64,000 nucleotides of DNA from Emticicia oligotrophica DSM 17448 (GTDB lineage Bacteria; Bacteroidota; Bacteroidia; Cytophagales; Spirosomataceae), in NCBI RefSeq assembly GCF_000263195.1, contig NC_018742.1:124001-188000 (forward strand), in the 5' to 3' direction. The position numbers and the translations under genes were made by a program. Of this stretch, positions 44,938 through 61,951 are shown piece by piece. The notes beneath the pieces were generated by a model. It worked only from the letters and a program-made list of their open reading frames with translations, was not told the origin of the DNA and searched no databases. The first letter of the stretch is position 1. The number at the start of each line of letters is the position of its first letter.

Positions 44938-46128
44938 TTATTTCTTAAAGCCTTTTGCTTTGGTATTTTTCAATTTTATACCCACTTCTCCCCTATTCTT
45001 GCTTAAACTTTGGTCTATTTTTGCCAAATCTATTTCTGCTTGATGATTACCCCGTGCTGTTGCTAATAAATCTGCAAGAAATGGCTTATCAAAATTTGAT
45101 TCAAAACTTTTAGGATTATTTTCTTTAAGTTTACTAAGCATATTTTCATAACTATAGGTTTGTCCTAAATCTGAACCAAGTATATATTTATGGTTAAAAT
45201 CGTCTTTCACAAACTTCAATTCTCTCCTACCCACTTTAGCAATCATATAAATTTGATATTGATTTTCAGCTAATTTCGACTTTAATTCATCAAAACTTTT
45301 TGTGTGTATTAATACTTTATCTATTACTTGTTTGAGTTTAGCGAGTTCCGAATTTTCCAATTGTTCATTCTCAAAAGTACCTTTTATCCTTTTCTCTAAA
45401 TTACCAAGTGAATAGGGTTTACCCAAATCACTTCCTTTGATTCTGATTCTCTTATCTGGTAAAATAAAGGTTATCCCCCTACCCTTTTCTACGCTAACAC
45501 CATTTTGATTTAATATTTTTTCTAATTCATCAACTGATTTAATTTTATGTAAGTTTTCATCTATCAACACTCTTAAAAATACTGAATATTGATTTTTTAG
45601 TTCTTTTGTTTTTCCATCTATCAGGTTTTGCCTCTGGGCTTCAAGTGGTTTTAATCCATATTTTTCTTCCATTTTTCGACAAAACTGATGGGTTTTTATA
45701 AAATTATTAGAGGTTTTTACAGCTTTTCCACCATCTAAATTTACTCTACTGGCTATAATATGAAAATGATGATGTTCTTTATCATAATGTCTAAAAGCAA
45801 TCATTTGCTTTTCATAAAATCCAAACTCTAAGCTAAAATCAACTATAATTTTTTCTAAAAGATTATTGCTTGGATTTTCTTCCTTCGGAAACGAAAAACT
45901 TTGATGCCAAAAAGATTGCTTGCAATTCGGATTCAGTACTGCCACCTCCGTAAATTGAGTTGCAATATCTGATAGATTCAACTCGCCATTGAAATCTTTT
46001 TTTACTTGCAGGTTCTGCGAGAAAATATACTCACCTCGTATATTTTTCTTTTTTGAGGTTGAATTTTCAAAATAACAATAGTTTAATAACCCTCTTATAT
46101 TTCCGCCTGTTGTCGTTTTTCCAATCAT
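44938..46128 (-). CDS. mobB: Conjugative relaxase (MobB-type, relaxase domain)
   Basis: This 396-residue relaxase nicks plasmid DNA at oriT and is carried with it through the transfer channel. The N-terminal relaxase domain has the start MIGKTTTGGNIRGLLNYC, a region with QSFWHQSFSFP, and the metal-binding HHHFH motif at residues 119-123 (EHHHFHIIASRVN). Tyr17 near the N terminus is a candidate catalytic residue. The C-terminal half contains two short repeats with LGSDLGQTYSYENM and KGSDLGKPYSLGNL, as in Bacteroidetes mobilisation proteins. It follows the MobC-like gene with a 2-bp gap. Confidence 0.92.
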   Translation of the reverse strand: MIGKTTTGGNIRGLLNYCYFENSTSKKKNIRGEYIFSQNLQVKKDFNGELNLSDIATQFTEVAVLNPNCKQSFWHQSFSFPKEENPSNNLLEKIIVDFSLEFGFYEKQMIAFRHYDKEHHHFHIIASRVNLDGGKAVKTSNNFIKTHQFCRKMEEKYGLKPLEAQRQNLIDGKTKELKNQYSVFLRVLIDENLHKIKSVDELEKILNQNGVSVEKGRGITFILPDKRIRIKGSDLGKPYSLGNLEKRIKGTFENEQLENSELAKLKQVIDKVLIHTKSFDELKSKLAENQYQIYMIAKVGRRELKFVKDDFNHKYILGSDLGQTYSYENMLSKLKENNPKSFESNFDKPFLADLLATARGNHQAEIDLAKIDQSLSKNRGEVGIKLKNTKAKGFKK

Positions 46129-46949: not shown

Positions 46950-47303
46950 ATGGTTGTTACTCGAAAATACTTAATCTGGGCATTAGAAAAGAATATTAAA
47001 ACCAAGAATTATCTTTTATACTGGTTTTTCCAAGACTTGATAGATTCTGCATTATCAAGTGCATTGGTTCAAAAGAAAATCTCCGATGAGTTGAATTGTG
47101 CCATTAAGAAATCTCAAATCGAAACCATCAGATACAGGATTCCTTCCAACAAATTGAAGGCATTTAAAAGACTCATTGTCATCGAGAAAGAAAAAGAAAT
47201 CTTTGCTCATGAAACTATCACTGAGCAAGAAATAACAACTTTTACAGACCCTTTTAAACAAAAACAAGAAAACGAAAGCTCTTTTATCAAACTTATCAAA
47301 TAA
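46950..47303 (+). CDS. Hypothetical protein ahead of the transfer ParA-like ATPase
   Basis: This 117-residue protein is basic and mostly helical, with a polar middle (ELNCAIKKSQIETIRYRIPSNKLKAFKRLI) and no signal or membrane segment. It lies 9 bp upstream of a ParA-like ATPase and belongs to the same plus-strand set of three genes. I do not recognise the family. The context between oriT-mob and tra genes suggests a transfer or regulation role. Confidence 0.7.
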   Translation: MVVTRKYLIWALEKNIKTKNYLLYWFFQDLIDSALSSALVQKKISDELNCAIKKSQIETIRYRIPSNKLKAFKRLIVIEKEKEIFAHETITEQEITTFTDPFKQKQENESSFIKLIK

Positions 47304-47312
47304 TCATTATTT

Positions 47313-48020
47313 ATGGCAAAAAAAAGCATTCATTTTATTATTCAATCCAAAGGTGGCGTAGGAAAATCATTTTTAACTTATCTTATTGCCTTAAAAAATC
47401 AATTTAACGATAGTGTGGCATTTTTCGATTTAGATTCTTCAACAGAAACATCGGTCAATCAACTGAAATTTCTGAAAGAAAAAAGTAGGGTTTATAAAAT
47501 TTCGCTATTAGACGAACGAAAGAAAATCATTAGAGATAGGCTACTGACAATAATAAAAAAAATCACTCAAATTTCAGAAATCCAAGATTTTTATTTAGAC
47601 TTTGGAGCTCCAGAAAGCGAACAACTCCCAGCCCTATTCAGCCTTGATTTCAAAACCGAGGCATTACAAAAATTTGCCAATCAAATAGATGCAGAATTTA
47701 TTTTTCATGTTGTTATCGCTGGAAACACAGCTTATGTTGCTTCAATGGAATATATTCAAACGGTCATTCAAACTCTTTCGGGTAGTTTTAAAATCATTGC
47801 TCATGCCAACGAAAATAGTTTTTATGGGTTTACTGATATTTTTGAAGAAGCCAAAAAGTATTGTGAAAAACAAAAAGTGGATTTTAAACCATTCGGTGAT
47901 ATTGACACACAAAGCCACGTAGGAAACCAAATCCTAAATTTGATTCGTCAAGGGGTAGGAATCGAAGATTATGATATTTTAGAACAGCTTAAAATTGAGG
48001 AGGAATTTGAAAAGCTATGA
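47313..48020 (+). CDS. ParA/MinD-like ATPase, transfer-associated
   Basis: This 235-residue ATPase has a deviant Walker A (SKGGVGKSF, residues 12-20, signature Lys13) and a FDLDSSTETSV switch segment. It resembles TraA-type ParA-like proteins that precede the tra genes in Bacteroides conjugative elements and is clearly different from the canonical ParA at 49145-49891. It may position the transfer apparatus or relaxosome. Its stop overlaps the next small membrane protein by 4 bp. Confidence 0.82.
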   Translation: MAKKSIHFIIQSKGGVGKSFLTYLIALKNQFNDSVAFFDLDSSTETSVNQLKFLKEKSRVYKISLLDERKKIIRDRLLTIIKKITQISEIQDFYLDFGAPESEQLPALFSLDFKTEALQKFANQIDAEFIFHVVIAGNTAYVASMEYIQTVIQTLSGSFKIIAHANENSFYGFTDIFEEAKKYCEKQKVDFKPFGDIDTQSHVGNQILNLIRQGVGIEDYDILEQLKIEEEFEKL

Positions 48021-48295
48021 ACCCAGATTTTTTAAACAGAGTTAGTCGTAATTTTGAGGATAATTACGGTGTAAAATTAGGAAAAAGCGGTGCATTATTT
48101 CTATCTATTTTAATTCAAAATGGGAAAGAAAACAATGAAAATATAAAATTAGCAACAGAACAAATTAAAGAAAATATTGTTTCAAAACCCATTCATTTCA
48201 AAGACTCTAAGCAGGCTTTTTTTTTCGGGTTGGGTATTACTGCACCTTTTTTCTTCTTGATAATTGCATTTCTACTTGTCCTTTTTCTCTCCTAA
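48017..48295 (+). CDS. Small protein with C-terminal membrane anchor
   Basis: This 92-residue protein has a soluble N-terminal part and a single hydrophobic C-terminal helix (FFFGLGITAPFFFLIIAFLLVLFLS), so it is probably tail-anchored in the inner membrane. It overlaps the ParA-like gene by 4 bp and is probably its partner. The family is not recognised. Confidence 0.75.
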   Translation: MNPDFLNRVSRNFEDNYGVKLGKSGALFLSILIQNGKENNENIKLATEQIKENIVSKPIHFKDSKQAFFFGLGITAPFFFLIIAFLLVLFLS

Positions 48296-48300
48296 ATTAA

Positions 48301-48341
48301 TTAAAAAGGGCTTCTATGTATGTTTTCAGTGAAGCCACTTT
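48301..48341. terminator. Imperfect hairpin between convergent genes
   Basis: AAAAGGGCTTC and GAAGCCACTTTT form an imperfect stem with a 15-18-base loop and flanking A and T tracts. It lies between the tail-anchored protein gene and the converging parB-like gene. Confidence 0.6.
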
Positions 48342-48345
48342 TAAA

Positions 48346-49128
48346 CTATATTCTCCGAATTATTCCCATCTTTTCAGCTTGCGAAAGCGTGATTTGAACC
48401 CTGTAATCAACCCCTATTTCTTCATTGGGATTTTGCCTTATCTCTCTCCAAACATCAACTAACTGATTTTTTAATAACCACCGACCACTTATTTCAACCC
48501 TAATATCGTCTAATTTAGCTTTGGCAACCTTCGACCGCATCTTCTTTAAAACGATTTCTTTTAGTTCTTCCTCTGTTGGCTCTTTCGGAGTTGCCAATTC
48601 TTCACTTTGTTTTGATAAAAGTTCTGTTTGCTCTACAATCATTTTAGCCGTAATTGGCTTTTTGGTTGTAAGACTTTCTTCTACTACCGCTCGCCAAACC
48701 TGAAATCGAAGCGTAACAGGAATTTGTGTCAGAGCATTTGCGTGCGATTCTTTGGTAGGCAGTAAATTTGATTTGTCGGAAATTTCCGACAAATTATTTT
48801 CTGACAATTGATTGACTACTTCGGCGGCCCCCATAAGCTCATAAGCTCGTTGTCTTTTTAGTTGCCAACGCTCTTTACAATAAGCCTCAAAGGTCGTAAA
48901 ACTACCTCGATAAAGTTTATTATTTCTAATCTCAAATAGTGCATTACCTACTTCTATAAATGTCTTTAAGCCTTTATCTATGACCTCTTCACATATCGTC
49001 AATCTTTCATTTTCCTCATTACTTAATGATGAGATTTCTGTTACCCCCTCATCAATTACAGCTAATTGCGTGAGCGGCTCAGCGTGCAAATCACGTAATA
49101 AATCGTTACTAAAACTTTTCTTTGCCAT
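48346..49128 (-). CDS. ParB-like partition/regulatory protein
   Basis: A 260-residue protein is called from ATG 49128 (MAKKSFSNDLLRDLH); the frame is open upstream but overlaps parA. The central region EVGNALFEIRNNKLYRGSFTTFEAYCKERWQLKRQRAYELMGAAEVVNQL is a helix-turn-helix domain seen in plasmid ParB-like and DUF3102-like proteins. The C-terminal part is helical and ends in a small basic domain. It lacks the N-terminal ParB nuclease-like box. It follows parA by 16 bp on the same strand, the standard partition-cassette order, so it is presumably the centromere-binding partner. Confidence 0.75.
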   Translation of the reverse strand: MAKKSFSNDLLRDLHAEPLTQLAVIDEGVTEISSLSNEENERLTICEEVIDKGLKTFIEVGNALFEIRNNKLYRGSFTTFEAYCKERWQLKRQRAYELMGAAEVVNQLSENNLSEISDKSNLLPTKESHANALTQIPVTLRFQVWRAVVEESLTTKKPITAKMIVEQTELLSKQSEELATPKEPTEEELKEIVLKKMRSKVAKAKLDDIRVEISGRWLLKNQLVDVWREIRQNPNEEIGVDYRVQITLSQAEKMGIIRRI

Positions 49129-49144
49129 AATATTTTGCTTCAAT

Positions 49145-49891
49145 TTAAATTTGGGTTTGTAGTAAAACTTCCTCACAAAGGCTTTCAAAATCTTTTGCTC
49201 CCCTCGATTCGGGTGCATACTCAAATACACTCAGAGCAAAAGCTGTACATTCCATCAACGAAACATCTTGTCGAATTTGGGTTTTGTAAAGTTTCACATT
49301 CGGGTCTGAGAGTAATTTACTGTGTACCATTTGCCCAAACTTGGTGCGAACATCAAACTTATTGAGCAGTATGCCTCCCAGTTCAATTTTAGGATTCATT
49401 CGTTTTTTTATTTTTGCACATAACTGCAAGATTTCATCTAAGCCAACATAAGCAAAGTTTTCGCCTTGCATTGGCACAATAAAAAAATCGCTGGCAACCA
49501 AAGCATTGACAGTCAAAGAGCCTAAACTTGGGGGACAGTCAATCAGCACGAAATCGTAATTTTGCCCCTCTAACTGTTCCTGCAAGAAATAGCCACTATC
49601 AGGCTCTGCATTGATACGGTACTCGTAACTGAGCAATTGGCGGCTCGCTGGAATAATATCGAAATTTTGTTTTTTAATCAGAGCAGACTCGAAATCAGTT
49701 TCTCCAACTAATAACTCTCCAATATGTTTTGCTGTTTTGCTTGCTCCTGCCGCAACACTCAGGTTGCACTGGGCATCTAAATCTATCAACAATACTTTAT
49801 TCCCTTTTCGACTTAGAGCAGCACTAAGGTTGAGTGTGGTGGTGGTCTTGCCTGTTCCGCCTTTGTTGTTTGTAATTGAGATTACTTTCAT
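49145..49891 (-). CDS. parA: ParA family plasmid-partition ATPase
   Basis: This 248-residue protein is a canonical ParA of the small (type Ib-like) class without an N-terminal DNA-binding domain. It has KGGTGKTTTT (deviant Walker A, 10-19), LLIDLDAQCNLS (switch I), FVLIDCPPSLGSLT (Walker B/switch II) and the C-terminal LYKTQIRQDVSLMECTA pattern. It forms ATP-dependent gradients on the nucleoid to segregate plasmid copies with the downstream ParB-like protein. Confidence 0.94.
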   Translation of the reverse strand: MKVISITNNKGGTGKTTTTLNLSAALSRKGNKVLLIDLDAQCNLSVAAGASKTAKHIGELLVGETDFESALIKKQNFDIIPASRQLLSYEYRINAEPDSGYFLQEQLEGQNYDFVLIDCPPSLGSLTVNALVASDFFIVPMQGENFAYVGLDEILQLCAKIKKRMNPKIELGGILLNKFDVRTKFGQMVHSKLLSDPNVKLYKTQIRQDVSLMECTAFALSVFEYAPESRGAKDFESLCEEVLLQTQI

Positions 49892-49919
49892 TGAATAAAT
49901 TTTAGGATTTTTCTTTGCT

Positions 49920-49927
49920 CAAAAATA
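49920..49927 (-). promoter_or_regulatory. Candidate -7 element for parA
   Basis: On the minus strand TATTTTTG fits TAnnTTTG and lies 28 bp upstream of the parA ATG. No convincing -33 partner at 19-20 bp spacing. Confidence 0.35.
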
Positions 49928-50042
49928 CAGATTTTAGGAGATAATGTATAATAAAATCAATGAAAAAGGTCTTGATTTTGAAAAATAAAAGGCAAAAAAA
50001 TAAAAAAATATTATTCATTAATATTTTTTATAAAAATTTACC

Positions 50043-50050
50043 TATATTTG
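50043..50050 (+). promoter_or_regulatory. Candidate -7 element for the conjugation operon
   Basis: TATATTTG matches the Bacteroidetes -7 consensus TAnnTTTG exactly and lies 18 bp upstream of the ATG of the first gene of the tra run. A T-rich tract near 50020 could replace the -33 TTTG. From here to 60774 all genes are on the plus strand with small gaps or overlaps. Confidence 0.5.
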
Positions 50051-50068
50051 CAGCATATTAGTAAGAAA

Positions 50069-50830
50069 ATGAGAATGTTGATAGCAATAAGTACAATTTT
50101 ATTAAAACAATTTCAGCCAATAATTTCATTGAGTAATTATGTCATTTTATCGGTTATTCTCTCAATTATCATTCTTCTGTTCTTGGAGGTAAAAAGTAAA
50201 GGTTTAGATAAAATTGAAACCAAAAAGGCCGAATCAATGCCTCTGAAAAATCCCAGTAATATGAATATTATGGGAGAAAATAAAGATGCTACTTTCTTTG
50301 GTTTGCACCGAAACGAACCCAAAAATGTAGAAAGACAATCAACATTCCAAAATGAGATTAAAGTACCCTTTCAAACAATAGAAATAAAAGAAGAAAGGCA
50401 AGTTGTGAAATCGACTTCGGGTTTTCATGTGGATGGAGAATTACCTAATTTAGATGATTTGACCGACCAAGATTTCAATATTATTATTTTTGAAGATGAA
50501 ATTGAGGATGATTATTACGAAAAGGAATCATTGGATATTCTCGAAATAAAAAAGAAGTTTGATTCAGGGGAATCTTTGACAGATGATGAACAAACTATCT
50601 TAGATACTTTTTTTAGGACCGAAGAGCAGTGGAAAGATTCTGCTCAAATAATTATAGAAAAAGAAAAAACAACCAATATTGATTTCGAGCCAAAATCTGA
50701 GCAATTGGAAAATATGATACCCATTGAAAACAATCTTTGTAAACAAAATTTTAACTACCCACTAAATCAAAATGTACAGTTTAACGAAGAGTTTGAATCA
50801 AAATTAATTTTTGATGAGTATCTGAATTAG
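50069..50830 (+). CDS. Membrane-anchored hypothetical protein at head of tra operon
   Basis: A 253-residue protein is called from ATG 50069; the frame is open from a TTG at 50048, but that overlaps the promoter element. It has one strong hydrophobic helix (about 18-40), followed by a long, acidic, low-complexity domain (DDLTDQDFNIIIFEDEIEDDYYEK, and a segment around ILEIKKKFDSGESLTDDEQ). It is the first gene of the transfer operon. I do not recognise the family; position suggests a TraD-like accessory. Confidence 0.7.
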   Translation: MRMLIAISTILLKQFQPIISLSNYVILSVILSIIILLFLEVKSKGLDKIETKKAESMPLKNPSNMNIMGENKDATFFGLHRNEPKNVERQSTFQNEIKVPFQTIEIKEERQVVKSTSGFHVDGELPNLDDLTDQDFNIIIFEDEIEDDYYEKESLDILEIKKKFDSGESLTDDEQTILDTFFRTEEQWKDSAQIIIEKEKTTNIDFEPKSEQLENMIPIENNLCKQNFNYPLNQNVQFNEEFESKLIFDEYLN

Positions 50831-50850
50831 CAATAAATATCTAATAATAC

Positions 50851-51150
50851 ATGACAAACAAACAAATACGATTGTTTAAAGTTATAGCAATCGCTCTATC
50901 TCCTTACGGGGTTATTGCACAAGCTACTGCAGGAATACAAAAAGCAACAACTGAAATTAGAGCATTTTTTCAACCTCTTACTTTATTGATGTATGCCATT
51001 GCAGCCGTAATTGGTGTTTATGGGGCAATTCGAGTGTTTAATAAATGGCAAGCGGGCGACCAAGACACTCAAAAAGCATTGGTGCAATGGCTGGGAGCAT
51101 TTATTTTTGTAATGGTAGCGGCCTCGGTTATTCAATCATTTGTAGGCTGA
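50851..51150 (+). CDS. traE: TraE-like (DUF4134) small membrane protein
   Basis: This 99-residue protein has an N-terminal signal-like segment (AIALSPYGVIAQATAG) and two hydrophobic helices separated by IRVFNKWQAGDQDTQKALVQW, the hallmark of DUF4134/TraE. Proteins of this type are thought to be the VirB2-like pilin or channel-forming subunit of Bacteroidetes conjugation systems. It is the first of four adjacent genes that share the same short motif. Confidence 0.85.
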   Translation: MTNKQIRLFKVIAIALSPYGVIAQATAGIQKATTEIRAFFQPLTLLMYAIAAVIGVYGAIRVFNKWQAGDQDTQKALVQWLGAFIFVMVAASVIQSFVG

Positions 51151-51416
51151 TGAATCTATTTTTACAAGGAATAGTTAGCCCATATTTGAAAGAATATACT
51201 GATATAGGATTAGCAAAATCAATTGTTCAAATGGTAATGGCTCTTTCGGCAATAATGGGTCTGTATTTTGCTTATCGGGTATTTCAAAAATTTCAAAATG
51301 GTGAAGATGATGCTTCACAAAAACTATGGTTATGGCTAACAGGATTTCTAATCTTGCTCGTTGGTTTGGTATTTCTTTCACAAACACTTTTGAAAAACGA
51401 TAATGCTTTGCAATAG
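51150..51416 (+). CDS. TraE-like small membrane protein, second copy
   Basis: This 88-residue protein starts at ATG 51150 (the A is the last base of the preceding stop, TGATG). It has two hydrophobic helices flanking FAYRVFQKFQNGEDDASQKLW, the same motif as traE but without the clear signal segment. Probably a diverged paralogue. It overlaps the next gene by 14 bp. Confidence 0.75.
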   Translation: MNLFLQGIVSPYLKEYTDIGLAKSIVQMVMALSAIMGLYFAYRVFQKFQNGEDDASQKLWLWLTGFLILLVGLVFLSQTLLKNDNALQ

Positions 51417-51660
51417 ACTAATTTTACAGATTTCTGGGCCATTAAATAATTTAGGAAATAGTCTTTTGGTTGATGCTAAAACAGCCAAAATGATAGCGAT
51501 TATGCTCGGTGCGGCGTATGGAGTGTGGGGATTATATAAAATCTACATTGCATGGAACAATGGTGATAATGACGTATATCAAAAGTTAATCCGTTGGTTA
51601 TTCTCATTGTTATTTTTAGAAACCATCATGTTTTTGATAATCAGTTCAATACTGAATTAA
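51403..51660 (+). CDS. TraE-like small membrane protein, third copy
   Basis: This 85-residue protein has two hydrophobic helices around LYKIYIAWNNGDNDVYQKLI, the traE-type motif. The ATG 51403 overlaps the previous stop codon region, and its own stop TAA shares its last base with the next ATG (TAATG). This is the third member of the tandem set. Confidence 0.72.
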   Translation: MLCNRLILQISGPLNNLGNSLLVDAKTAKMIAIMLGAAYGVWGLYKIYIAWNNGDNDVYQKLIRWLFSLLFLETIMFLIISSILN

Positions 51661-51863
51661 TGGCAGAGCTAATTTCTATCTTTTTTGCAGTCAAACGCAT
51701 CATTCAAGCCATAACCATGATTATTGCAATCGTGGTTGGTTTTAGAATATATCGAAAATGGAATGGGGGAGAAGACATCGAAGAAAGTATTTATTATTGG
51801 TTCTTTGGGTTGATAAGTACAACCATCGCTGTTGAATTAGTTGCAAGACTTTTTAAGCTATGA
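51660..51863 (+). CDS. TraE-like small membrane protein, fourth copy
   Basis: A 67-residue protein is called from ATG 51660 (MAELISIFFAVKR). The frame stays open upstream to 51594, but that region belongs to the third copy. Two hydrophobic helices flank GFRIYRKWNGGEDIEESIYY, the most diverged version of the motif. It overlaps traF by 4 bp. Confidence 0.7.
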   Translation: MAELISIFFAVKRIIQAITMIIAIVVGFRIYRKWNGGEDIEESIYYWFFGLISTTIAVELVARLFKL

Positions 51864-52183
51864 TAGAATACAAAATTAATAGAGGTGTTGAAAACGAGAT
51901 AGAATTTAAAGGGCTTAAAGGGAAGTACGTATATATATTTTCGATAGGAATCGGAGCATCACTTTTTGGAGGGATATTCTTAACAATTATTGGTTTACCG
52001 AATATAGTTTCGAGCATCTTGGCTGGAATAGGAATCATTGGTTCAACTGTTTATGCTTTTCAACAAAACAAGATATATGGACGATGGGGAAGAGATAAAA
52101 AATTGGCCCAAAATATGTATCCCGCAGGCATAGTAAGGAGAAAATACATATTTGATAAATTATTGAAAAAGAGCAATGAGTAG
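51860..52183 (+). CDS. traF: TraF-like (DUF4133) conjugation protein
   Basis: This 107-residue protein has the DUF4133 start (YKINRGVENEIEFKGLKGKY), two membrane helices (about 26-48 and 52-68) and a polar C-terminus (YGRWGRDKKLAQNMYP). In Bacteroides elements TraF lies directly before TraG and is compared with VirB3. Here it overlaps traG by 8 bp. Confidence 0.88.
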   Translation: MIEYKINRGVENEIEFKGLKGKYVYIFSIGIGASLFGGIFLTIIGLPNIVSSILAGIGIIGSTVYAFQQNKIYGRWGRDKKLAQNMYPAGIVRRKYIFDKLLKKSNE

Positions 52184-54641
52184 TGTATTTAATTTAGAAG
52201 ATAAGTTTCCGATTTTAGCCATTGAAGAAAATCAAGTCATTTCAAAAATGGCAGATATAACTTTGTGCTTTGAAGTAGAAATGCCTGAGATTTTTTCATT
52301 AAGTGAAACTGATTATGATTATCTGACAGCCCTTTGGGAAAGAGCAATTGCTGTGTTGCCTGTACATACGGTATTACATAAACAAAATTGGTATATAGAA
52401 GAAAAATACCACCCAAATTATGATGCTGACTATTTATTAAAAGCAAAAATCATAGCTCATGCCAATGAAAGGCACTTTGCAAACAGGCCATTTTTAAGCA
52501 ATAAATGTTATTTGTTTCTTACAAAAACAACAGCAGCTATCGAAAAAAATATTTGTACATCATCAAATCTTTTTAAGTCGAGAGCTGTTCCGAAATCACA
52601 ACTTAACGAAAAAGATAAAAGAGAGTTTTATGAAGCTGTCGGGCAGTTCATTACGATTATTAAAGAATCTGGCTTCTATAAAATAGATGAAATAGGAGGG
52701 GAAGAAATTAGTAGAATCCACCAAAATTACATCAATCTCTCTTATTCGGCAGATAGTATTTCAGATATTGACCCACATCAATTCAAAATAGGAGGAAACC
52801 ATTGTAAAGTTTTAAGTATAAGTCAGTTAGAGGATTTTCCCTCCACAATCTCTAATCAAAACAAATTAGAAAGATACTGCACTGATAAAACATACATTGG
52901 GGTTTCATTAGGGGCAAACTTAGGGATTCTATTACCTTTTAGTCATATCTATAACCAAATTATTGTCATTATTGACCATAACGAATTGTTACAAAAGTTA
53001 AATCAAGATATTCGACGTTTTACATCTTTATCGACGTATAGCAAAGAGAATCTTATCAACCGTGATTTTAAAGAGACTTTTGTAGAAACAAGCATTGCTG
53101 AAAACGAACGAGCTGTTGCAGTTCATGCAAATGTTTTGATTTGGGATAAGGATATAAATGTTTTGGAAGATAATCGTTCGATGGCTTCGGCAGCAATCAC
53201 CAAAATGGGGTTTAAAGCAAGACAAGCCGAATATGATGGTTTTTTACTTTACTGGAACTGTATTCCGGGCAATGCAGCCGATATAGGTAAAGATAATTTA
53301 AGCACTGTATTTAGAGGGCAAGCCGTGTGTTTAATGGCATTGGAAGCCAATTATAAGGATGCAATGTTAAATCAATTTCAAGGAAATCCACAAGGAATGG
53401 TTGTAACGGATAGGCTATCAGGAATCCCGTTGATGTTAGATGTTTTTGACGAACCTATGAAAAAAGGGTTAGTTACCAATCGCAATGTAATGATAGTTGG
53501 TCCGTCGGGTTCAGGAAAATCATTTTTAACTAATAATTTGATGTATTATCTCTACGAAAGGGGGAGTCATATCACGATTGTAGATACTGGGAACTCGTAT
53601 AAAAGACTTTGTGAATTAGTAGGAGGGAGATACATTACTTATGACGAGAAAAAACCAATTGCATTTAACCCTTTTCATATTCAAACGTTATTCCCTGACT
53701 TAGAAACCAAAGAAAATTTAGTAACAATTCTTGAAGCTCTTTGGAAAGGAGAGGACTCATCTATTAGTACCTCAGAGAATACTACCTTAGATGATATGGT
53801 TGTTAGGTTTTATGAAACATTAGTTGACCTCAAACAAAAAGGAAAACAATTCTTTGTCGATTTTAATCTGTTTTTTGACTATTGCAATGAGGTCTATCCT
53901 ACTGTTTTCAATAAAAATGATGGTAGAGAAAAAGAATTTGACCTAAAAAATTTCCTCTATATTATGCGGAGATATTACAAAAACGGTCAATATGGCTATC
54001 TACTTAATAGCCGTGAAAACTTCAACATCGAAGAGCATCCCTTTGTGATTTTTGAGTTAGACAATATCAAAGACCATCCTGTTTTGTTTCCAATTACGAG
54101 CATCATCATCATGAATGCTTATGCTCAAAAATTGGTCAAAATGAAAGGATTTTATAAATTTTTGGTTATTGAAGAAGCATGGAAAGCTGTTTCAAATCCA
54201 GCTTTTGCACAATTTATGAAATGGGTTTCAAAGACTGCCAGAAAACATGGAGGTGGTTTAGTAACTGTTACTCAAGAATACCAAGATTTAACAAGTGAGC
54301 TGGTAAAAGATGCCATTATTAATAACTCACCGACGAAGGTTTTGTTAGATTTCTCTCGATATAAAAATTATATTCAAGATGTTGCCAATACACTTGGGCT
54401 TTCACGAGCCGAAACAGATATGCTCCTAAGTGTGAATCAGTCGAATGATGCAGCGAGGAAGTACAAGGAGTTTTTTATAACATTTGGAGGGAATCTATCA
54501 AAGGTGTTTGGCTTAGAAGTATCTCCAGAGGCTTATGCCACATTCACAACCGAACGCAAAGAGTCTGATTTGATTTATGCTATCTCTGAAAAAATAGGTT
54601 TAGAAAATGCCATAAAAACATTTGCCAAGGGCGACTACTAA
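52176..54641 (+). CDS. traG: TraG-type conjugation ATPase (VirB4 family)
   Basis: This 821-residue protein is the transfer-energising ATPase at the inner-membrane base of the type IV secretion channel. It has an N-terminal VirB4-like region, a P-loop VGPSGSGKSFL (about 440-450), VDTGNSYKRLC after it, a Walker B with FLVIEEAWKA (Glu666/667) and WVSKTARKHGGGLVTVTQEYQD, the arginine-containing motif of the family. No membrane helix is needed, as in this class. It is well conserved and complete. Confidence 0.95.
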   Translation: MSSVFNLEDKFPILAIEENQVISKMADITLCFEVEMPEIFSLSETDYDYLTALWERAIAVLPVHTVLHKQNWYIEEKYHPNYDADYLLKAKIIAHANERHFANRPFLSNKCYLFLTKTTAAIEKNICTSSNLFKSRAVPKSQLNEKDKREFYEAVGQFITIIKESGFYKIDEIGGEEISRIHQNYINLSYSADSISDIDPHQFKIGGNHCKVLSISQLEDFPSTISNQNKLERYCTDKTYIGVSLGANLGILLPFSHIYNQIIVIIDHNELLQKLNQDIRRFTSLSTYSKENLINRDFKETFVETSIAENERAVAVHANVLIWDKDINVLEDNRSMASAAITKMGFKARQAEYDGFLLYWNCIPGNAADIGKDNLSTVFRGQAVCLMALEANYKDAMLNQFQGNPQGMVVTDRLSGIPLMLDVFDEPMKKGLVTNRNVMIVGPSGSGKSFLTNNLMYYLYERGSHITIVDTGNSYKRLCELVGGRYITYDEKKPIAFNPFHIQTLFPDLETKENLVTILEALWKGEDSSISTSENTTLDDMVVRFYETLVDLKQKGKQFFVDFNLFFDYCNEVYPTVFNKNDGREKEFDLKNFLYIMRRYYKNGQYGYLLNSRENFNIEEHPFVIFELDNIKDHPVLFPITSIIIMNAYAQKLVKMKGFYKFLVIEEAWKAVSNPAFAQFMKWVSKTARKHGGGLVTVTQEYQDLTSELVKDAIINNSPTKVLLDFSRYKNYIQDVANTLGLSRAETDMLLSVNQSNDAARKYKEFFITFGGNLSKVFGLEVSPEAYATFTTERKESDLIYAISEKIGLENAIKTFAKGDY

Positions 54642-54678
54642 TCGTAATTATCTCAATATTCATATAAAAAAAAGAATT

Positions 54679-55650
54679 ATGAAATCGTACAGTAAAAAAT
54701 GGGGTTTAACCTCTTTGATGTTTATTTTGACAGGTTCGTTTGCTTTTTCTCAGTTTGTTGTCAGCGACCCAATTCATACAGGAATAAGTATTGCGGCTAA
54801 AATACTCCATGTTGCCAATCAAATAACATCTACCCTTCACTTAGATGAGGTATTAAAAGCCGCTGAGAAACTAAAAAAAGTAAGCAATGGTATCAAAACC
54901 TTTCATCGGATTACTCAAACCGTTACAAACATCAAAAATGCAGGGCAACACTACCAGCAAGCCGTAAAAGTAATTAGCACCGATAAGCATTTTAAGCCTA
55001 AAGAAATGGAAAAAATCTTGTTAGGCTATGAATCTCTTTTGCGTGAATCGAGCAATGTGATAAAAGACCTCAATCAGGCAACTCAAGGGAACTTTTTAGA
55101 AATGAAAGATGGAGAACGTTTAGCGTGGATTGAAAAAGTTTGTGATAAAGCCAATCAACATATCAAATCAATCGAACAATATACTGCTTCAGTCAGGGCG
55201 ATTTCGACCATGAGAGCAAAAACAAACGGAGATTATCGAGTTACAGTTGCTCTATATGGATTTTCCGATGAATTTTCGACTGCTATAAATTCAAACCAAT
55301 ATGCCTCTATTAATACAGGTAACTATGAGGTTAATTATGGCGATACTAACTGGACTGGCTACGGAAGAACCGACGCTCTTTCACAAGCAAAAGGAACAAC
55401 GGCACTGGATGACGAAGCAGCAAAATCTGCTATGGGAGCTTATCAATGGAATTATGGCGGTTCTTTATCAAATCCTTCCACAACAGGAACGACAGAAAGA
55501 AATACAAGCACCGAAAATACAACAATTACCCGAAATACTAATACAACAACAACGCCCATAACTCGAAATACTGGTGCGAATAAACCCAGTGGTTGTATGA
55601 AATATAACAAAAATGGTCCGTACTGGGACCCAAATTGTACAGGAAACTAA
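54679..55650 (+). CDS. traI: TraI-like (DUF4141) periplasmic conjugation protein
   Basis: A 323-residue protein is called from ATG 54679; the frame opens earlier inside traG. A signal peptide (cleavage near FAFSQ) precedes a helical domain of about 190 residues (DPIHTGISIAAKILHVANQ, LDEVLKAAEKLKKVSNGIK), typical of the Bacteroides DUF4141/TraI family. These are sometimes compared with VirB5. The C-terminus is a Thr/Asn-rich linker followed by a short Cys-containing tail (GCMKYNKNGPYWDPNC), probably a disulfide or surface tag. Confidence 0.85.
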   Translation: MKSYSKKWGLTSLMFILTGSFAFSQFVVSDPIHTGISIAAKILHVANQITSTLHLDEVLKAAEKLKKVSNGIKTFHRITQTVTNIKNAGQHYQQAVKVISTDKHFKPKEMEKILLGYESLLRESSNVIKDLNQATQGNFLEMKDGERLAWIEKVCDKANQHIKSIEQYTASVRAISTMRAKTNGDYRVTVALYGFSDEFSTAINSNQYASINTGNYEVNYGDTNWTGYGRTDALSQAKGTTALDDEAAKSAMGAYQWNYGGSLSNPSTTGTTERNTSTENTTITRNTNTTTTPITRNTGANKPSGCMKYNKNGPYWDPNCTGN

Positions 55651-55656
55651 ATTATT

Positions 55657-56622
55657 ATGGATTTATCAACGGATGTTATAAAACTAATCGAAACAACTTT
55701 CCAAGAGTTAAAAAATTCGATGGCAAATGATTATAAAGGTTTAATTGATATTGGACGAGCCATTGGAGGAATAGGAGCTTTGATTTATATTATTACCAAA
55801 ATATGGAGTGCTTTAATTAGAAGCGAACCTATTGATTTTGTTCCATTAATTAGACCATTTATTATACTTCAATTAATAACTTTTTCAAATGCTTTTTGCG
55901 AATCCTTGGATAGCATAGGGGAGGGAGTACTCAAAATTTCTAATACAAGTGTTGGGCAAATGTCAATAAAAATACAGGAAGCCATCAAAAAACGAGAGCA
56001 AGCACTACAACAAGGTAATGAAAATAGTAAAGATAAAAATGGGGCAACTTTTAACGACCAAGATAAAATAACCGATGTGAGTGCTTTCTCATTTTTATCG
56101 GAATTAGGGGCTGCCTATGACCAGTTTGTTGGAAAAATTGAATTGGTTATTGATAAGTTCTTAATAGATATTTTTAGTGTTATCCATGATGTTTGCTATA
56201 TTTTGATGATTTTGATAAGTGCTTTTTTCAGGCTATTGCTTCGGGTTGTAGCACCCATTGCATTCGGAATGGCCATTTGGGATGGTTTTACTAATAATAT
56301 TTTTGAGTGGGTTGGTAAATACCTAAATTATACATTGCTCCCTTTTGCTGCTGGAATTTATACAACTATCATTTCTAAAATAGAGGTTATTTACTTGACA
56401 GCCCAACTACAAGATTATGTCAATAATGGTGAAGATTCAGTTACAGGTATCTTAATTTTAATGATACTCAGTATTTTAGGGTATTTCTTTGTACCAACTG
56501 CAGCCAATATGATAATCAGCGTTGGAGGTGTTAGTCAAGTAACTTCTGGGCTTGGAAGAATGGCTGCAAGCACCATCACTACTACAAAACGAGAAACAAT
56601 CGGTAGATTTTCAAGAAGATAA
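55657..56622 (+). CDS. traJ: TraJ conjugation membrane protein (VirB6-like)
   Basis: This 321-residue polytopic inner-membrane protein has hydrophobic helices at about 28-48, 60-76, 170-205, 225-245 and 262-290. The patterns LLRVVAPIAFGMAIWDGF and FEWVGKYLNYTLLPFAAGIYT are those of TraJ in Bacteroides conjugative transposons. It builds the inner-membrane channel. It follows traI with a 6-bp gap. Confidence 0.9.
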   Translation: MDLSTDVIKLIETTFQELKNSMANDYKGLIDIGRAIGGIGALIYIITKIWSALIRSEPIDFVPLIRPFIILQLITFSNAFCESLDSIGEGVLKISNTSVGQMSIKIQEAIKKREQALQQGNENSKDKNGATFNDQDKITDVSAFSFLSELGAAYDQFVGKIELVIDKFLIDIFSVIHDVCYILMILISAFFRLLLRVVAPIAFGMAIWDGFTNNIFEWVGKYLNYTLLPFAAGIYTTIISKIEVIYLTAQLQDYVNNGEDSVTGILILMILSILGYFFVPTAANMIISVGGVSQVTSGLGRMAASTITTTKRETIGRFSRR

Positions 56623-56641
56623 GAGCAAAAAAATTTGATAA

Positions 56642-57259
56642 ATGAAATCACTTCACAACATCGAAACAAGTTTTCAATTGACTAAGACCATAGCCATTGT
56701 AGCAGTTTTAGCATCGTTGATATATTCATTGGTCATAACTTTTTTGTATTTCAAAAATGCAAATGAGTCCGCCGAAAGGGTTTATATTATGTCTTCTGGG
56801 GCAGCCATTGAGGCATTTTCATCTAATGTAAGAGAAAATCGCCCTGCCGAGGTTCGACATCATCTAAAACGTTTGCATGAACTTTTCTTTACGATTTCAC
56901 CTGACCCTAAAAGCATCGAGCGAAATTTAGAAAAAGCTTATTATTATGGTGATGCCAGTATCAAAAAATTATATGAGGCTTACTCCGAAAAACAATATTA
57001 CTACGATTTAATTTCTGCTAATGCCTCACAAGAAATTAATATTGATTCAGTATATGTTGATATGAAAGATTACCCATTTACTGCAAAATGTTATTCGACA
57101 ATAAGAATAAATCGAGCAACGACCAAAACCACCAGAACCTTAGTTACTGACTGTACAATCATGGAAATAAATCGGAGTGATAACAATCCACATGGTTTGA
57201 TGGTACAAAACTGGCGAGTAGTTGAAAATAAAGATGTTAAGGCTGAAGATAACTTTTAA
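56642..57259 (+). CDS. traK: TraK conjugation protein (VirB8-like)
   Basis: This 205-residue bitopic protein has one N-terminal membrane helix (about 15-36) and a periplasmic domain. HHLKRLHELFFTISPDPKSIERNLEKAYYYGD is the characteristic TraK segment. It is thought to act as the assembly factor equivalent to VirB8. It is followed after 3 bp by traL. Confidence 0.92.
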   Translation: MKSLHNIETSFQLTKTIAIVAVLASLIYSLVITFLYFKNANESAERVYIMSSGAAIEAFSSNVRENRPAEVRHHLKRLHELFFTISPDPKSIERNLEKAYYYGDASIKKLYEAYSEKQYYYDLISANASQEINIDSVYVDMKDYPFTAKCYSTIRINRATTKTTRTLVTDCTIMEINRSDNNPHGLMVQNWRVVENKDVKAEDNF

Positions 57260-57262
57260 TTT

Positions 57263-57463
57263 ATGAATCAACAGAAAGAGTTATACTCCGTAAAGAAGCC
57301 AATTAAAGAAATAATTACCGAAAAACTACATGAAAACTTAGACTTGGCTGGTAAAAAAATCAATTCAGTTCAAAGTAAAATCGGCACAGTTTCCAGTAAG
57401 ATTATATTTATTTTTGTACTTACAGGCTATTTATTCTATTTTCTTAAACCATTTTTTTTGTAA
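57263..57463 (+). CDS. traL: TraL-like small membrane protein (DUF3989)
   Basis: This 66-residue protein has an N-terminal polar half with coiled-coil character (KEIITEKLHENLDLAGKKIN) and a C-terminal membrane helix (IIFIFVLTGYLFYFLKPFF). Size and position between traK and traM match Bacteroides TraL. The short gaps on both sides indicate co-translation. Confidence 0.75.
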   Translation: MNQQKELYSVKKPIKEIITEKLHENLDLAGKKINSVQSKIGTVSSKIIFIFVLTGYLFYFLKPFFL

Positions 57464-57466
57464 TAA

Positions 57467-58759
57467 ATGTCAGCTCAAACTAATCTAATTGCAGCTAATC
57501 AAAATCGGCAAATGCGGATTATTGTCATTCCATTTATATTCACAATCGTGGGTTTTCTTGGTTTTAATATTGGTATCATTGGAGAGGTAGATGCAAAATC
57601 TCTCTCAAATAAAGATATAATAAATGGTATTCCAGAAGCAAAAATCAAAGGATTTGACGAAAATAAGTATAAAAATGGAATTGTAGAAGCCGAAAAATGG
57701 GAACAAGAAAAAAACGATGAAGAAAATAGTTTATCCGCTTTTGATGGCAATAAAATTAGTAGCAATGAATCATTGAGCGAAGAACAGAAAAAAATATTGA
57801 TTCAAAATCATGCACTGACACCCAAAACCAAAGAAGAAATTCTGTATGACCATTCTAAAAGAACTACTTCTATTTTGAATGACCAAACACGGGCAATACA
57901 AGATATATATAAAGTTCAACCCGAAACATACGAACAACGCCAAAATCGTGATAACATTCAAAAAGCAAAAGACTTGAATAATTATGCTCTTGATTTATCC
58001 CGGCAAAGTGAACTAATGGCTCTGAATGGCAGTAAAATAAATTCGACTTACGTGCCAAATCCTAATTCGGTCATTCAACCAGTAGTTCCTGTCGAAAACC
58101 AATCAGACATTAAACCCAAACCTGAAATAAGAGTAGCAGATAATGCCGTCATAGCAACCTCGTTACCTTCTAAGATTGAAACTGAAAGTCGAATATTCAA
58201 TGCTTTTTATGGAATCAAGGGAGAAAAAAAAGAAATGGGTAAAAATCAATCCGGTTCGAATATTAGGGCTGTAATACATGGAGATGCCGACAAAATTAGT
58301 GTTGTAAATGGTTCTAACATTAAAATTAGGCTAATACAAGATATAAAAGTAAATGGAATATTTGTTCCCAAAAATACACTCGTAACAGGCACATGTACTA
58401 TAAATGGTGATAGACTTTATATCGGAATAACAACTGTAAAAGTGGGAGATGAATTACTTCCATTGCGAGTAAAAGTAGTCGATATTGATGGTGTAGATGG
58501 AGTTTACATACCTAATATGCAAATAAAATCACAGTTGAATCAGGCCCTTGTTAGAAGTACAGATGCAGTTAATTCACCAGGATTTTATTTTACCCCAAGT
58601 AATGCTCCAGCAGGTCAGCAAATTCTTGGACAAATAGCTTCTCAAGGAGTATCAAGTTTTATTCAAACAGGCAAACAGATATTGAATCAAAAAGCAAGTG
58701 TTTCCAAAGTAAGTATAAAAGCTAATTATCAAATCCTGTTAATTCCTGTACAATATTAA
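57467..58759 (+). CDS. traM: TraM conjugation protein (VirB10-like)
   Basis: This 430-residue protein has a single N-terminal membrane helix (about 19-38), a long charged and Gln/Asn-rich periplasmic linker (to about residue 250), and a C-terminal domain. That domain carries IRAVIHGDADKISVVNGSNIKIRL and FVPKNTLVTGTCTINGDRLYI, the beta-barrel domain of VirB10/TraM. It spans the periplasm and couples inner-membrane ATPases to the outer-membrane pore. Confidence 0.92.
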   Translation: MSAQTNLIAANQNRQMRIIVIPFIFTIVGFLGFNIGIIGEVDAKSLSNKDIINGIPEAKIKGFDENKYKNGIVEAEKWEQEKNDEENSLSAFDGNKISSNESLSEEQKKILIQNHALTPKTKEEILYDHSKRTTSILNDQTRAIQDIYKVQPETYEQRQNRDNIQKAKDLNNYALDLSRQSELMALNGSKINSTYVPNPNSVIQPVVPVENQSDIKPKPEIRVADNAVIATSLPSKIETESRIFNAFYGIKGEKKEMGKNQSGSNIRAVIHGDADKISVVNGSNIKIRLIQDIKVNGIFVPKNTLVTGTCTINGDRLYIGITTVKVGDELLPLRVKVVDIDGVDGVYIPNMQIKSQLNQALVRSTDAVNSPGFYFTPSNAPAGQQILGQIASQGVSSFIQTGKQILNQKASVSKVSIKANYQILLIPVQY

Positions 58760-58769
58760 TCTAAAAATA

Positions 58770-59720
58770 GTGAAAATATTTATACTTACTCTATCAATCA
58801 TCCTATCTTCAAAGTACGTTTTTTCACAAAAAGACACTTTCCGAATAAAGAGTGACTCTATAGCTCAATCGTTGATGGCTGAAGAAGTTTTTAAAAAAAC
58901 AATACTGATGCCTATTAGTAAGAAATCGGTACGAGGCTCATATCCTTTAGAGGTTTCTTTTCAAAAAACAACACATCTAATTTTTCCCAATAAAATTGTT
59001 TATGTTGATTTAGGCTCTGATGCCATTATAGCTGATAAATCTGACCCAACTCAGAACATTTTAAGGGTAAAGGCAAACATAAAAGGGTTTTCTGAAACCT
59101 CTTTGGCAGTTATTACCGAAGATGGCAAGTTTTATAGCTTTTTAGTCAATTATGAAGATAACCCCGAAAAACTAAATATCTCGATAGCCAATAATATAGA
59201 GTTTGACGAAGAATTTTCGGCATCTTCGGGTATGAAAAAATCAACACCTGAAGATATTATTCTACCCGAAAATACTATGAATGAAGGAGATTTAGAACAA
59301 ACTTGTTTAGAGGTAGCAAAACTTAAAAGATTCATAAAAACAACAGGCATTACTCGTATGAAAATGTCAATGACATTAGATGGTGTTTACATAAAAGATA
59401 AGACTCTTTTTCTGCAATTTAAAATCAATAATCACAGCGAAATAGACTTTACAATAGATTTTATGAAGTTTTATATCCATGATATAGATGTAGCTAAAAG
59501 GATGGCATATCAAGAAATTGAGGTAAAATCTGAATTTGAGTATAATAAAAATATCAGTTGGGTATCAAAAAATAAAAGCCTTATTAGAGTTGTAGCACTG
59601 CCTTTGGTAACTTTTCCTGATGACAAAATAATGTCGGTTGAATTGTATGAAAAATTTGGTGGCCGCCATTTAAAATTTGAAATTGATAACGAAATAATCG
59701 TAAATGGAAAAGCTCTCTAA
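58770..59720 (+). CDS. traN: TraN conjugation protein (DUF4138, VirB9-like)
   Basis: This 316-residue secreted protein is read from GTG 58770 (MKIFILTLSI...), which is the only start that keeps the signal peptide (cleavage near YVFSQ). The beta-rich domains with TTHLIFPNKIVYVDLGSDAII and NILRVKANIKGFSETSLAVIT are the DUF4138/TraN pattern. It partners TraM and TraO in the outer part of the channel. It overlaps the next gene by 17 bp. Confidence 0.88.
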   Translation: MKIFILTLSIILSSKYVFSQKDTFRIKSDSIAQSLMAEEVFKKTILMPISKKSVRGSYPLEVSFQKTTHLIFPNKIVYVDLGSDAIIADKSDPTQNILRVKANIKGFSETSLAVITEDGKFYSFLVNYEDNPEKLNISIANNIEFDEEFSASSGMKKSTPEDIILPENTMNEGDLEQTCLEVAKLKRFIKTTGITRMKMSMTLDGVYIKDKTLFLQFKINNHSEIDFTIDFMKFYIHDIDVAKRMAYQEIEVKSEFEYNKNISWVSKNKSLIRVVALPLVTFPDDKIMSVELYEKFGGRHLKFEIDNEIIVNGKAL

Positions 59721-60294
59721 AAAACTCTTCATAATAATTTGGATAATAATTATGTGGCCAATATCAACAAAAGCACAAATTCATAGTAAAAACCTGAGGA
59801 CAATAGAATTATCAATGGGGTTGATGGATAAACTGTCGTTCAAAAAAGATGATAACGTAGGCATTTGGTTAAATTTTATTTTCTCAAAATATAATGCACG
59901 AAAAGGCGGATTTCGATACGGTATAAATCTTCAACAGAAATATTACGAAACTCCTGTTAAACGATTGATAAATGTTAATCAGTATTTTGTTGAAACTGGC
60001 TATGGGTTTGAACTAATAAAATCAAAAAAAAGAAGGCTGTTTTTGAATGGCGTTGGTGGATTGGTTGCGGGGTATGAATCTATCAATGGTGAAAAAAAAG
60101 AAGTTGACGCTTTGTTTGTTGTTCAAAATGAAAGTAAAATTTTAGCAGGAACGTACTTTTTGGTAGAGTTTGAAGCAATTTTAAGTACAAAAACATCTTT
60201 AATCATTAATACTCGCCAAATTTGGACTCCAACTTCTAACTTGCAAGATTTTCATAGCAGGGTGGGTATAGGCTTACGTTTAAACTATTTTTAA
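59704..60294 (+). CDS. traO: TraO-like outer membrane conjugation protein
   Basis: This 196-residue protein has a signal peptide (cleavage near STKAQ) and about 170 residues of beta-rich sequence ending in an aromatic residue (GIGLRLNYF), typical of outer-membrane barrels. RYGINLQQKYYETPVKRLINVNQYFVETGY fits the TraO family. It overlaps traN and abuts the next GTG without a gap. Confidence 0.8.
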   Translation: MEKLSKKLFIIIWIIIMWPISTKAQIHSKNLRTIELSMGLMDKLSFKKDDNVGIWLNFIFSKYNARKGGFRYGINLQQKYYETPVKRLINVNQYFVETGYGFELIKSKKRRLFLNGVGGLVAGYESINGEKKEVDALFVVQNESKILAGTYFLVEFEAILSTKTSLIINTRQIWTPTSNLQDFHSRVGIGLRLNYF

Positions 60295-60774
60295 GTGAAA
60301 AGAATAATTGCTATCATAACACTGTTGTTGCTCTTACAGAGCTGTATTTCGCATTTAGATATTGTTCCCGTGTCTAAAAATATTGAATCAGCACAGGCTA
60401 CAGTATTACCTGATTTTAATTTTAATGTAAGGGTTGCGTCGGGTTCTGACATTATAAAATCAACAGAAAGTCAGTTATATAATATCTACATTAGACAATC
60501 AGATTTTGAGGTTTCTAATCAAGTCTATTACCTAATTGTTCAGCCTACAAATAATTACGACGGAAATATTGAAATAAATGATGGTAAAACAATTAAAAGC
60601 TATCGGGGCGGAGATTGGATACCCATTTTTTATGATAATCTTCTTAATAGTTCGATTAACATTAAATATTCGCCAGTAAAGCCTTCAATAGGTACCTATA
60701 CCATAAATTTTACGTGTTTTGATAAATTAAAACGTACAAAAACGATTTCGAGAAATCTTACAGTTAATCCATAA
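60295..60774 (+). CDS. traQ: TraQ-like (DUF3872) lipoprotein
   Basis: This 159-residue lipoprotein is read from GTG 60295, directly after the traO stop. Its lipobox is LLLQSC (Cys17). The mature domain (NFNVRVASGSDIIKSTESQL, IYIRQSDFEVSNQVYYLIVQ, KIKYSP-like strands) matches the DUF3872 family, which is placed at the end of Bacteroides tra operons. It is convergent with the next gene and overlaps it by 11 bp. Confidence 0.82.
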   Translation: MKRIIAIITLLLLLQSCISHLDIVPVSKNIESAQATVLPDFNFNVRVASGSDIIKSTESQLYNIYIRQSDFEVSNQVYYLIVQPTNNYDGNIEINDGKTIKSYRGGDWIPIFYDNLLNSSINIKYSPVKPSIGTYTINFTCFDKLKRTKTISRNLTVNP

Positions 60775-61363: not shown

Positions 61364-61765
61364 ATAAAGCTATAATTAACTTATAAGTATTTTATATTAA
61401 TATTTTTAATTATATTATATATTATAATATAATATTTTATTGGTATAAGTAACAATTTGTAAGATTTATTAAATAGGAAACTTTAAACCGCAAAACCTGA
61501 GGAAAATCGCCGAAAATCTTTAATAATTTGTACGAAATATTAGCCTCGTCCGCCCGCCCCAGCCCTTTTTCTATTAATTTTAATGATTTTTTCCTTTTCA
61601 ACATCTCCGAAAAACTAAAAGAATAAACATTTCAACACTAATAGATAAATTATATCAAAATTGTTTTTTTAATTGTAATGTCAGATTTAATTGATTTGTA
61701 GATAATTGTAGATAATTGTCCGATTTTGTAACTCGCTGATTATAAGTTTATTATACACTAATAAG
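61364..61765. other. AT-rich origin flank with GC block and 10-bp tandem repeat
   Basis: The first 120 bases are almost pure A/T with palindromic TATATTATA-type runs, a good candidate for the duplex-unwinding region. At 61543-61565 an isolated GC-rich block (GCCTCGTCCGCCCGCCCC followed by AGCCC) contrasts sharply. A perfect 10-bp tandem repeat TTGTAGATAA occurs at 61696-61705 and 61706-61715. A near-consensus DnaA box TTATACACT lies at 61751-61759, just before the first iteron. Confidence 0.6.
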
Positions 61766-61933: not shown

Positions 61934-61951
61934 CTTATTCATAAAAAAGAG

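Follow-up and report, generated by a model that had tools for sequence, protein, structure and literature searches.

To our knowledge, a single pilin is the rule in well-studied conjugation systems. VirB2 pilins lie in the membrane with the loop cytoplasmic and both ends outside, and TrwL of R388 is a small two-helix protein. A 2025 review of type IV secretion systems (T4SSs) describes the conjugative pilus as built of VirB2 and mentions two arrays, those of Bartonella and of Patescibacteria; the terms Bacteroid and CTnDOT have no match in the part of its text that was available (PMC12857230). Tandem TrwL copies in Bartonella Trw are read as variant pilins under diversifying selection in the accessible part of the paper concerned (PMC2610397). 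VirB2 arrays of 2-11 genes are described for Patescibacteria in a paper that, in the portion available, also names Anaplasma and treats the MPF_B TraE profile as one of those for VirB2 (PMC12102498). The Pfam family DUF4134, to which TraE belongs, is met in gene lists alone in the accessible parts of the literature searched, and that literature, whose scope leaves out most subscription-journal papers, yielded no description of a four-TraE set.

The window analysed here is a stretch of 64,000 nucleotides from Emticicia oligotrophica DSM 17448 (NC_018742.1). It encodes four paralogous two-helix hairpins of fixed class, E1 to E4, one of each class, directly before TraF and TraG (Table 1). A previous reading made from the sequence alone (the sequence-only reading) had claimed four tandem open reading frames with overlapping ends, and four complete, overlapping frames, each with an ATG start, are found at 50851-51863. 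The overlaps measure 1 nt (E1/E2), 14 nt (E2/E3) and 1 nt (E3/E4), and E4 overlaps TraF by 4 nt. The window genome holds no DUF4134 matches besides these four.

Table 1. Positions in the window of the four hairpin genes, the downstream tra genes and the relaxase gene
Feature	Position	Strand	Length	Description or match
E1	50851..51150	+	99 aa	Canonical TraE, class 1; two-helix hairpin preceded by a signal-peptide-like N terminus
E2	51150..51416	+	88 aa	TraE-like hairpin, class 2; without evident signal peptide in the window copy
E3	51403..51660	+	85 aa	TraE-like hairpin, class 3C (C-terminal half of the relatives' fused third gene)
E4	51660..51863	+	67 aa	TraE-like hairpin, class 3N (N-terminal half of the relatives' fused third gene)
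TraF, VirB3-position membrane protein	51860..52183	+		DUF4133, 65.5 bits (cut-off 25.2)
TraG, VirB4-type assembly ATPase	52176..54641	+		TIGR03783, 722.6 bits (cut-off 261.55)
Secreted helical protein after TraG, VirB5-like reading	54622..55650	+		BLASTP 2e-08 to the L212 protein; no Pfam match above cut-off
TraJ (VirB6-like)	55657..56622	+		TIGR03782, 141 bits (below cut-off 289.95); CtnDOT_TraJ 25.3 and TrbL 20.5, both below the Pfam cut-off
TraK (VirB8-like)	56642..57259	+		TIGR03781, 191.2 bits (cut-off 152.45); Pfam VirB8, 29.4 (cut-off 23.2)
TraM	57467..58759	+		Transposon_TraM, 117.4 bits (cut-off 25.1); TIGR03779, 146.4 (below cut-off 172.45)
TraN-position protein	58770..59720	+		Pfam DUF4138, 224.2 bits (cut-off 31.1)
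TraO	59704..60294	+		Pfam TraO, 78.1 bits (cut-off 25)
MobA/VirD2-like relaxase adjoining the tra operon	44938..46128	-		Pfam Relaxase, 94.1 bits (cut-off 24.6)

The four proteins had been called TraE-like, and each scores above the DUF4134 gathering cut-off of 26.5 bits (E1 91.5, E2 33.8, E3 31.9 and E4 35.3 bits); an absence of DUF4134 similarity in copies 2-4, set beforehand as the refuting outcome, did not occur. Along the profile (length 93), E1 is matched over 4-92 and the others over the hairpin part alone (E2 36-89, E3 37-84, E4 31-88). Against a profile of 56 single-copy TraE proteins E1 scores 95.2 bits, and for each of the four proteins 0 of 2000 block shuffles, in which the composition of every helix and loop was preserved, reached the real score on that profile. 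An interpretation of E1-E4 as hydrophobic look-alikes is ruled out by the Pfam cut-offs and the block shuffles. The shared hairpin motif stood in part: its exact form matches E2 and E3 only, since position 1 is I and not aromatic in E1 and E4 reads G-E-D-I, and a shorter core, (R/K)(V/I)(F/Y)x(K/A)(W/F)xxG(D/E), is present in all four. This core has no other match in the six frames of the window, and residue shuffles give an expectation of 0.02 matches per window.

The neighbouring genes for the relaxase and for TraF, TraG, TraJ-like, TraK, TraM, TraN-position and TraO proteins define the locus as a Bacteroidota-type conjugation operon, and the MPF_B-type set (TraG, TraF, TraK, TraM, TraN/O) is present with each member above a Pfam or NCBIfam cut-off. 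A ParA-like gene and a second minus-strand gene without Pfam family (48346-49891, minus strand) lie within the tra operon, between 48295 and the gene preceding E1. At locus L212 (5465-6328, minus strand) a DUF4134 hairpin of 49.9 bits stands at the C terminus of a protein related to the window's post-TraG protein (Table 1); from its sequence this fusion is read as a putative pilin-type hairpin on a VirB5-position protein. No end overlap was found in contig C1 (190,222 bases), and a megablast of window positions 47000-62000 against plasmids gave no match. A search of PHROGs returned two weak matches, both of unknown function, and a scan of viral contigs returned 18 loci with 27-47% identity to TraG, mostly short ATPase matches.

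The distribution of the set was followed with a TraG model over 222 genomes of the window's family, in which at most four candidates were scored per genome and broken TraG genes could not be ranked by score. The model was built from ten branch members, nine of them among the places recovered. It separates 35 distinct places at 1183-1526 bits from a next group that starts at 924 bits; the window's TraG, itself among the ten rows, scores 1259 bits and lies above this gap. A survey of copy number in related plasmids had been suggested by the sequence-only reading, and exactly four hairpins are found in 35/35 places above the gap, window included, with a detection profile for which E1-E4 themselves served as the seed. 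Thirteen of these places were chosen by TraG alone and then inspected, and the other 22 came from earlier sampling. The initial sample consisted of loci with several DUF4134 matches and is biased accordingly; later sampling was by TraG. A duplication private to the window genome is ruled out by the scan of 222 genomes together with the four hairpins in all 35 places. Of seven places inspected below the gap, six have one hairpin, and the seventh has an interrupted TraG, where no hairpin was found. Exactly four TraE-type hairpins are the mark of one branch of conjugation machines.

The way in which the four hairpins are packaged is nearly constant. In 34/35 places there are three genes, one for class 1, one for class 2 and a third of approximately 140-165 aa that carries two hairpins, 3N and 3C. 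The window is the one place of 35 with four genes, in which 3C and 3N are unfused and stand in the order 3C-3N, the reverse of that in the fusion. Profile comparisons between classes give 97-99% probability, and the classes are therefore all of one family. In a leave-group-out test of the class profiles, with copies of one locus kept in one group, 99/100 hairpins were assigned correctly, the sole miss being the class-2 hairpin of L058. Judged by their length, some contigs had been sampled twice (L055 = L048, L056 = L194, L058 = L256, L249 = L260). The 25-locus and 38-locus class models contain near-copies, and the 13 loci added for the latter include L256, already used as L058.

The window proteins were left out of the class models, and in all four model sets E1, E2, E3 and E4 each score best on a different class, namely 1, 2, 3C and 3N. 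E1 reaches 87.7-91.0 bits on the class-1 profile. For E2 the best score, on class 2, and the next best in brackets are 32.2 (29.7), 38.2 (31.1), 40.5 (33.3) and 42.3 (32.5) bits in the four sets. E3 scores 40.2-43.1 bits on class 3C (next 33.0-36.9), and E4 42.2-51.0 bits on class 3N (next 27.3-40.0). With the 38-locus models the scores of E1-E4 are 88.6, 42.3, 43.1 and 51.0 bits, with 46.3, 32.5, 36.9 and 36.0 bits for the next class. The assignment of E2 is the weakest, with a small margin in the first set and a class-2 profile that rates E1 (42.6-46.3 bits) above E2 in every model set. E3 and E4 are better assigned, so that in the window the hairpins joined in the fusion are encoded by two genes, in the opposite order.

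The complete fused gene was present in 11/390 genomes sampled from the order, each of the 11 a member of the window's family, and in 1/395 genomes sampled from the phylum. In three plasmids, two from Runella and one from Fibrella, the annotation lists three separate DUF4134 proteins, and the double hairpin goes unremarked in the tables inspected. L213 (1440-2823), which is distant and comes from a different family of the order, packages four hairpins as one gene, a fused pair and one gene; matches to its second, third and fourth hairpins are weak (E up to 0.007), one of its genes lies below the Pfam cut-off, and only its first hairpin can be assigned to a class. Class-2 proteins with a hydrophilic C-terminal tail of approximately 70 residues occur in one sub-branch (L050:6280-6996, L195-L200), and one with a shorter, proline-rich tail occurs at L057:8681-9196. 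Three loci of the family with a broken TraG were inspected: L271 with four classes, L273 with one hairpin and L208 with remnants of three classes. Two of these are decayed branch members, L208 (G163:C3) with remnants of class 1, class 2 and 3N and TraG fragments, and L271 (G159:C501) with all four hairpins kept and TraG split over several frames. Six further loci comprise L271, three loci with one hairpin, one with two and one with none in the stretch.

In a wider sample, 80 loci from GTDB were picked by TraG similarity alone. Four hairpins occur in four of them, which are the first four of the list (Runella twice, Flavobacterium sp. SUN052 and an Arcicella MAG). The other 76 comprise 54 with one hairpin within 4 kb upstream of TraG and 22 with none there; 16 of these 22 have a single DUF4134 protein 6.6-9.1 kb upstream, and six have none within the stretch. 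In these 16 loci (L061, L063, L066, L068, L069, L074, L075, L078, L080, L081, L082, L084, L092, L097, L101 and L108) either the genes are ordered differently or a large insert separates TraE from TraG. The earlier claim of one traE in the tra operons of Bacteroides agrees with the sampled Bacteroides loci, which have one TraE. Other copy numbers occur outside the branch, with two hairpins in L035-L041, L210 and L211 and three in L205-L207. L210 (3038-3754) and L211 (3139-3852), from another family of the order, have two tandem TraE genes, apparently a separate gain. L205, L206 and L207, from the genus of Spirosoma linguale, have a TraE and a 194-aa frame with two hairpins outside the four classes, apparently a separate hairpin fusion.

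In three TraG trees the four-hairpin loci all fall to one side of a fully supported branch (15/15 loci in the first tree, 27/27 in a tree of 118 rows and 15/15 in a rooted IQ-TREE). All 73 one-hairpin loci in the 118-row tree, which leaves out L208 and L212 with a TraG cut by the stretch, fall outside the four-hairpin branch. The root of the IQ-TREE was set by Flavobacterium and Tenacibaculum plasmids with a single TraE; a third intended outgroup row, B. fragilis pBF9343, was placed elsewhere on a very long branch, and its placement was not used. The window pairs with L213 in the TraG trees, which joins two long branches, and this pairing is not trusted and was not used. Copy number needs three changes on the rooted tree, most simply one gain of the four-hairpin set and two separate gains of the two-copy and three-copy sets.

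Selection was measured in 12 pairs of relatives, none of which includes the window and which share loci and are thus non-independent. The dN/dS of the hairpins ranged from 0.00 to 0.16 (42/48 values computable, with synonymous sites saturated in the other six) and that of TraG from 0.02 to 0.06, and purifying selection acts on each of the four classes in the tested relatives. Each class is thus conserved there in its own right, which speaks against redundancy, and also against surface variation as the principal cause of the four-hairpin set. The specialisation of subunits claimed in the sequence-only reading fits these values and the presence of the same four classes in 35/35 family places. 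The tandem copies could instead be variant pilins that diversify an exposed surface, and with it the range of recipients or the escape from phages, a proposal made for the Trw system of Bartonella; variable tandem VirB2 copies are described in the accessible parts of the reports on that system (PMC2610397) and on Patescibacteria (PMC12102498), and class 2 has the highest dN/dS here (0.16, 0.14 and 0.11 in single pairs). Such variation is very unlikely in view of the purifying selection on all four classes in the 12 pairs and of classes that are distinguishable and present once each in 35/35 places, and the dN/dS of the relatives disfavours it. Plain duplication, for dosage or by drift and with no specialised role, would fit the varied packaging (four separate genes, or three of which one is a fusion, or the different fusion of L213) and the two or three copies in other branches. 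It is contradicted by the conserved class identity and we consider it extremely unlikely: the window's copies are just 16-30% identical in pairs, purifying selection acts in the relatives, and the number four and the class identities are kept while TraG within the branch falls to 36% identity with that of the window.

Two hydrophobic helices had been claimed for each protein, and a hydropathy scan finds two hydrophobic segments in each of E1-E4, with an extra N-terminal, signal-peptide-like segment only in E1. With segments set by hydropathy, both hairpin loops are richer in K/R than the linker in 16/25 fused proteins, and in 9/25 the K/R count of the linker equals or exceeds that of the first loop. 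By the positive-inside rule, the majority pattern implies cytoplasmic loops in both hairpins, with the linker and the two termini on the outer side. For a fused relative from L043, AlphaFold predicts four helices forming two hairpins, with moderate confidence (pLDDT 72.1, pTM 0.46), and its model of E1 has a mean pLDDT of 79.5. Fold comparisons (Foldseek and VIA-align on E1, Foldseek on the L043 fusion) gave generic helical matches, with no T4SS pilin among the matches listed.

The link to known pilins was also sought in the sequences. PDB sequence searches gave no significant match (best E 0.28, 0.21 and 0.099), and PF04956 gave no match to E1-E4 at E<=1. The TraE classes compared with TrbC/TrwL by hhalign reach a probability below 1% in a shallow alignment of four of six sequences (without L238 and L239). 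Pfam T4SS_pilin weakly matches the class-2 protein of L042 (E 1.6e-4, below cut-off) and gives E 0.016 for E1. The order hairpin - VirB3 - VirB4 in the window is that of trwL - VirB3 - VirB4 in R388.

The window's E2-E4 have no evident signal peptide and may for that reason not be pilins at all. They would then be fixed inner-membrane accessory proteins derived from TraE, such as assembly factors or adaptors for TraG or TraJ, and only E1 would be polymerised. We regard this as rather unlikely. It accords with the signal-peptide-like N terminus found only in E1 in the window, with a fused third gene in which no signal-peptide-like stretch was seen in the translated loci, and with class 1 as the most conserved hairpin (mean identity over 28 pairs from eight loci 0.56, against 0.42 for 3C, 0.35 for 3N and 0.32 for class 2; TraG 0.52). 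Opposed to it are the hairpin core of E1, which is kept in E2-E4, and the N-terminal hydrophobic stretch of class 2 in some loci (L051, L057 and L202 by hydropathy, L047 by eye).

We rather favour co-assembly, and think it somewhat probable that a canonical TraE and three specialised relatives would join in a mixed pilus base, channel or pilus. The sequence-only reading had proposed a hetero-oligomeric pilus or pore of specialised subunits, and this interpretation is supported in part. E1 would be the Sec-exported, processed main pilin-like subunit, and E2, E3 and E4 would be inner-membrane hairpins whose charged loop faces the cytoplasm and whose termini lie outside. These would pack with E1 and with one another, E3 as the neighbour of E4, and the resulting hetero-oligomeric ring or short filament would be assembled by TraG on a platform of TraJ (VirB6-like) to give a specialised pilus base, a channel lining or a mixed pilus. 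The 3N-3C fusion in the 34 other family places would fix a 1:1 neighbourhood of two hairpins that the window encodes in separate, swapped genes, and the joining of two classes in one polypeptide fits a fixed hetero-complex.

The evidence for this mixed-subunit assembly consists of the constancy of four hairpins (35/35, with the four classes of L271 in addition), the recovery of the classes, the best scores of E1-E4 on four different classes, the branch in the TraG trees, the dN/dS values, the K/R pattern, the gene order and the T4SS_pilin match of L042. Counting against it are the want of a profile link to TrbC/TrwL in the comparison of four sequences, the uninformative fold comparisons, the linker K/R in 9/25 fusions, the class-2 profile that rates E1 above E2, and the single-TraE relatives that do without the other three hairpins. 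The covalent double hairpin is harder to fit in a pilus built subunit by subunit than in a fixed membrane ring, which counts against a mixed pilus. More tentatively, and with some doubt, the pilin-type part could be obligately hetero-oligomeric and built of four specialised VirB2-like hairpins, with one per class per repeat and two neighbours welded, which would make this a T4SS with a mixed pilus or base of fixed stoichiometry.

The conservation of four hairpins points to a mixed-subunit structure in a DNA-transfer machine, and four constant classes with two of them fused offer a natural tether that shows which subunits adjoin. The architecture of a Bacteroidota conjugation machine thereby becomes testable in environmental bacteria with complete plasmids, such as Runella slithyformis with pRUNSL02 and pRUNSL03.

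Among known systems, the single TraE of Bacteroides-type MPF_B shares with the window the family DUF4134 and the place before DUF4133 (TraF) and TraG; it is one hairpin gene, whereas the window's branch has four classes. TrwL/VirB2 of R388 resembles the window in position, with a pilin gene followed by VirB3 and then VirB4, but it is a single gene, and its profile similarity to the TraE classes was undetectable in the shallow four-sequence comparison. In Bartonella Trw the VirB2-position gene is likewise duplicated in tandem, according to the accessible part of the report (PMC2610397), whereas here purifying selection acts in the relatives and there is one copy per class. The VirB2 arrays of Patescibacteria are, as described in the available portion of PMC12102498, also tandem, divergent, small pilin-like proteins near virB4; they number 2-11 genes and lie in T4SS clusters most of which lack a relaxase. 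In contrast, the window's branch has a constant four distinct classes and a fused double hairpin, and a relaxase adjoins the window's operon. Tandem arrays of VirB2-type pilins are thus already known from Bartonella and Patescibacteria, and the branch described here differs from them in its constant set of four classes and the fusion of two of them.
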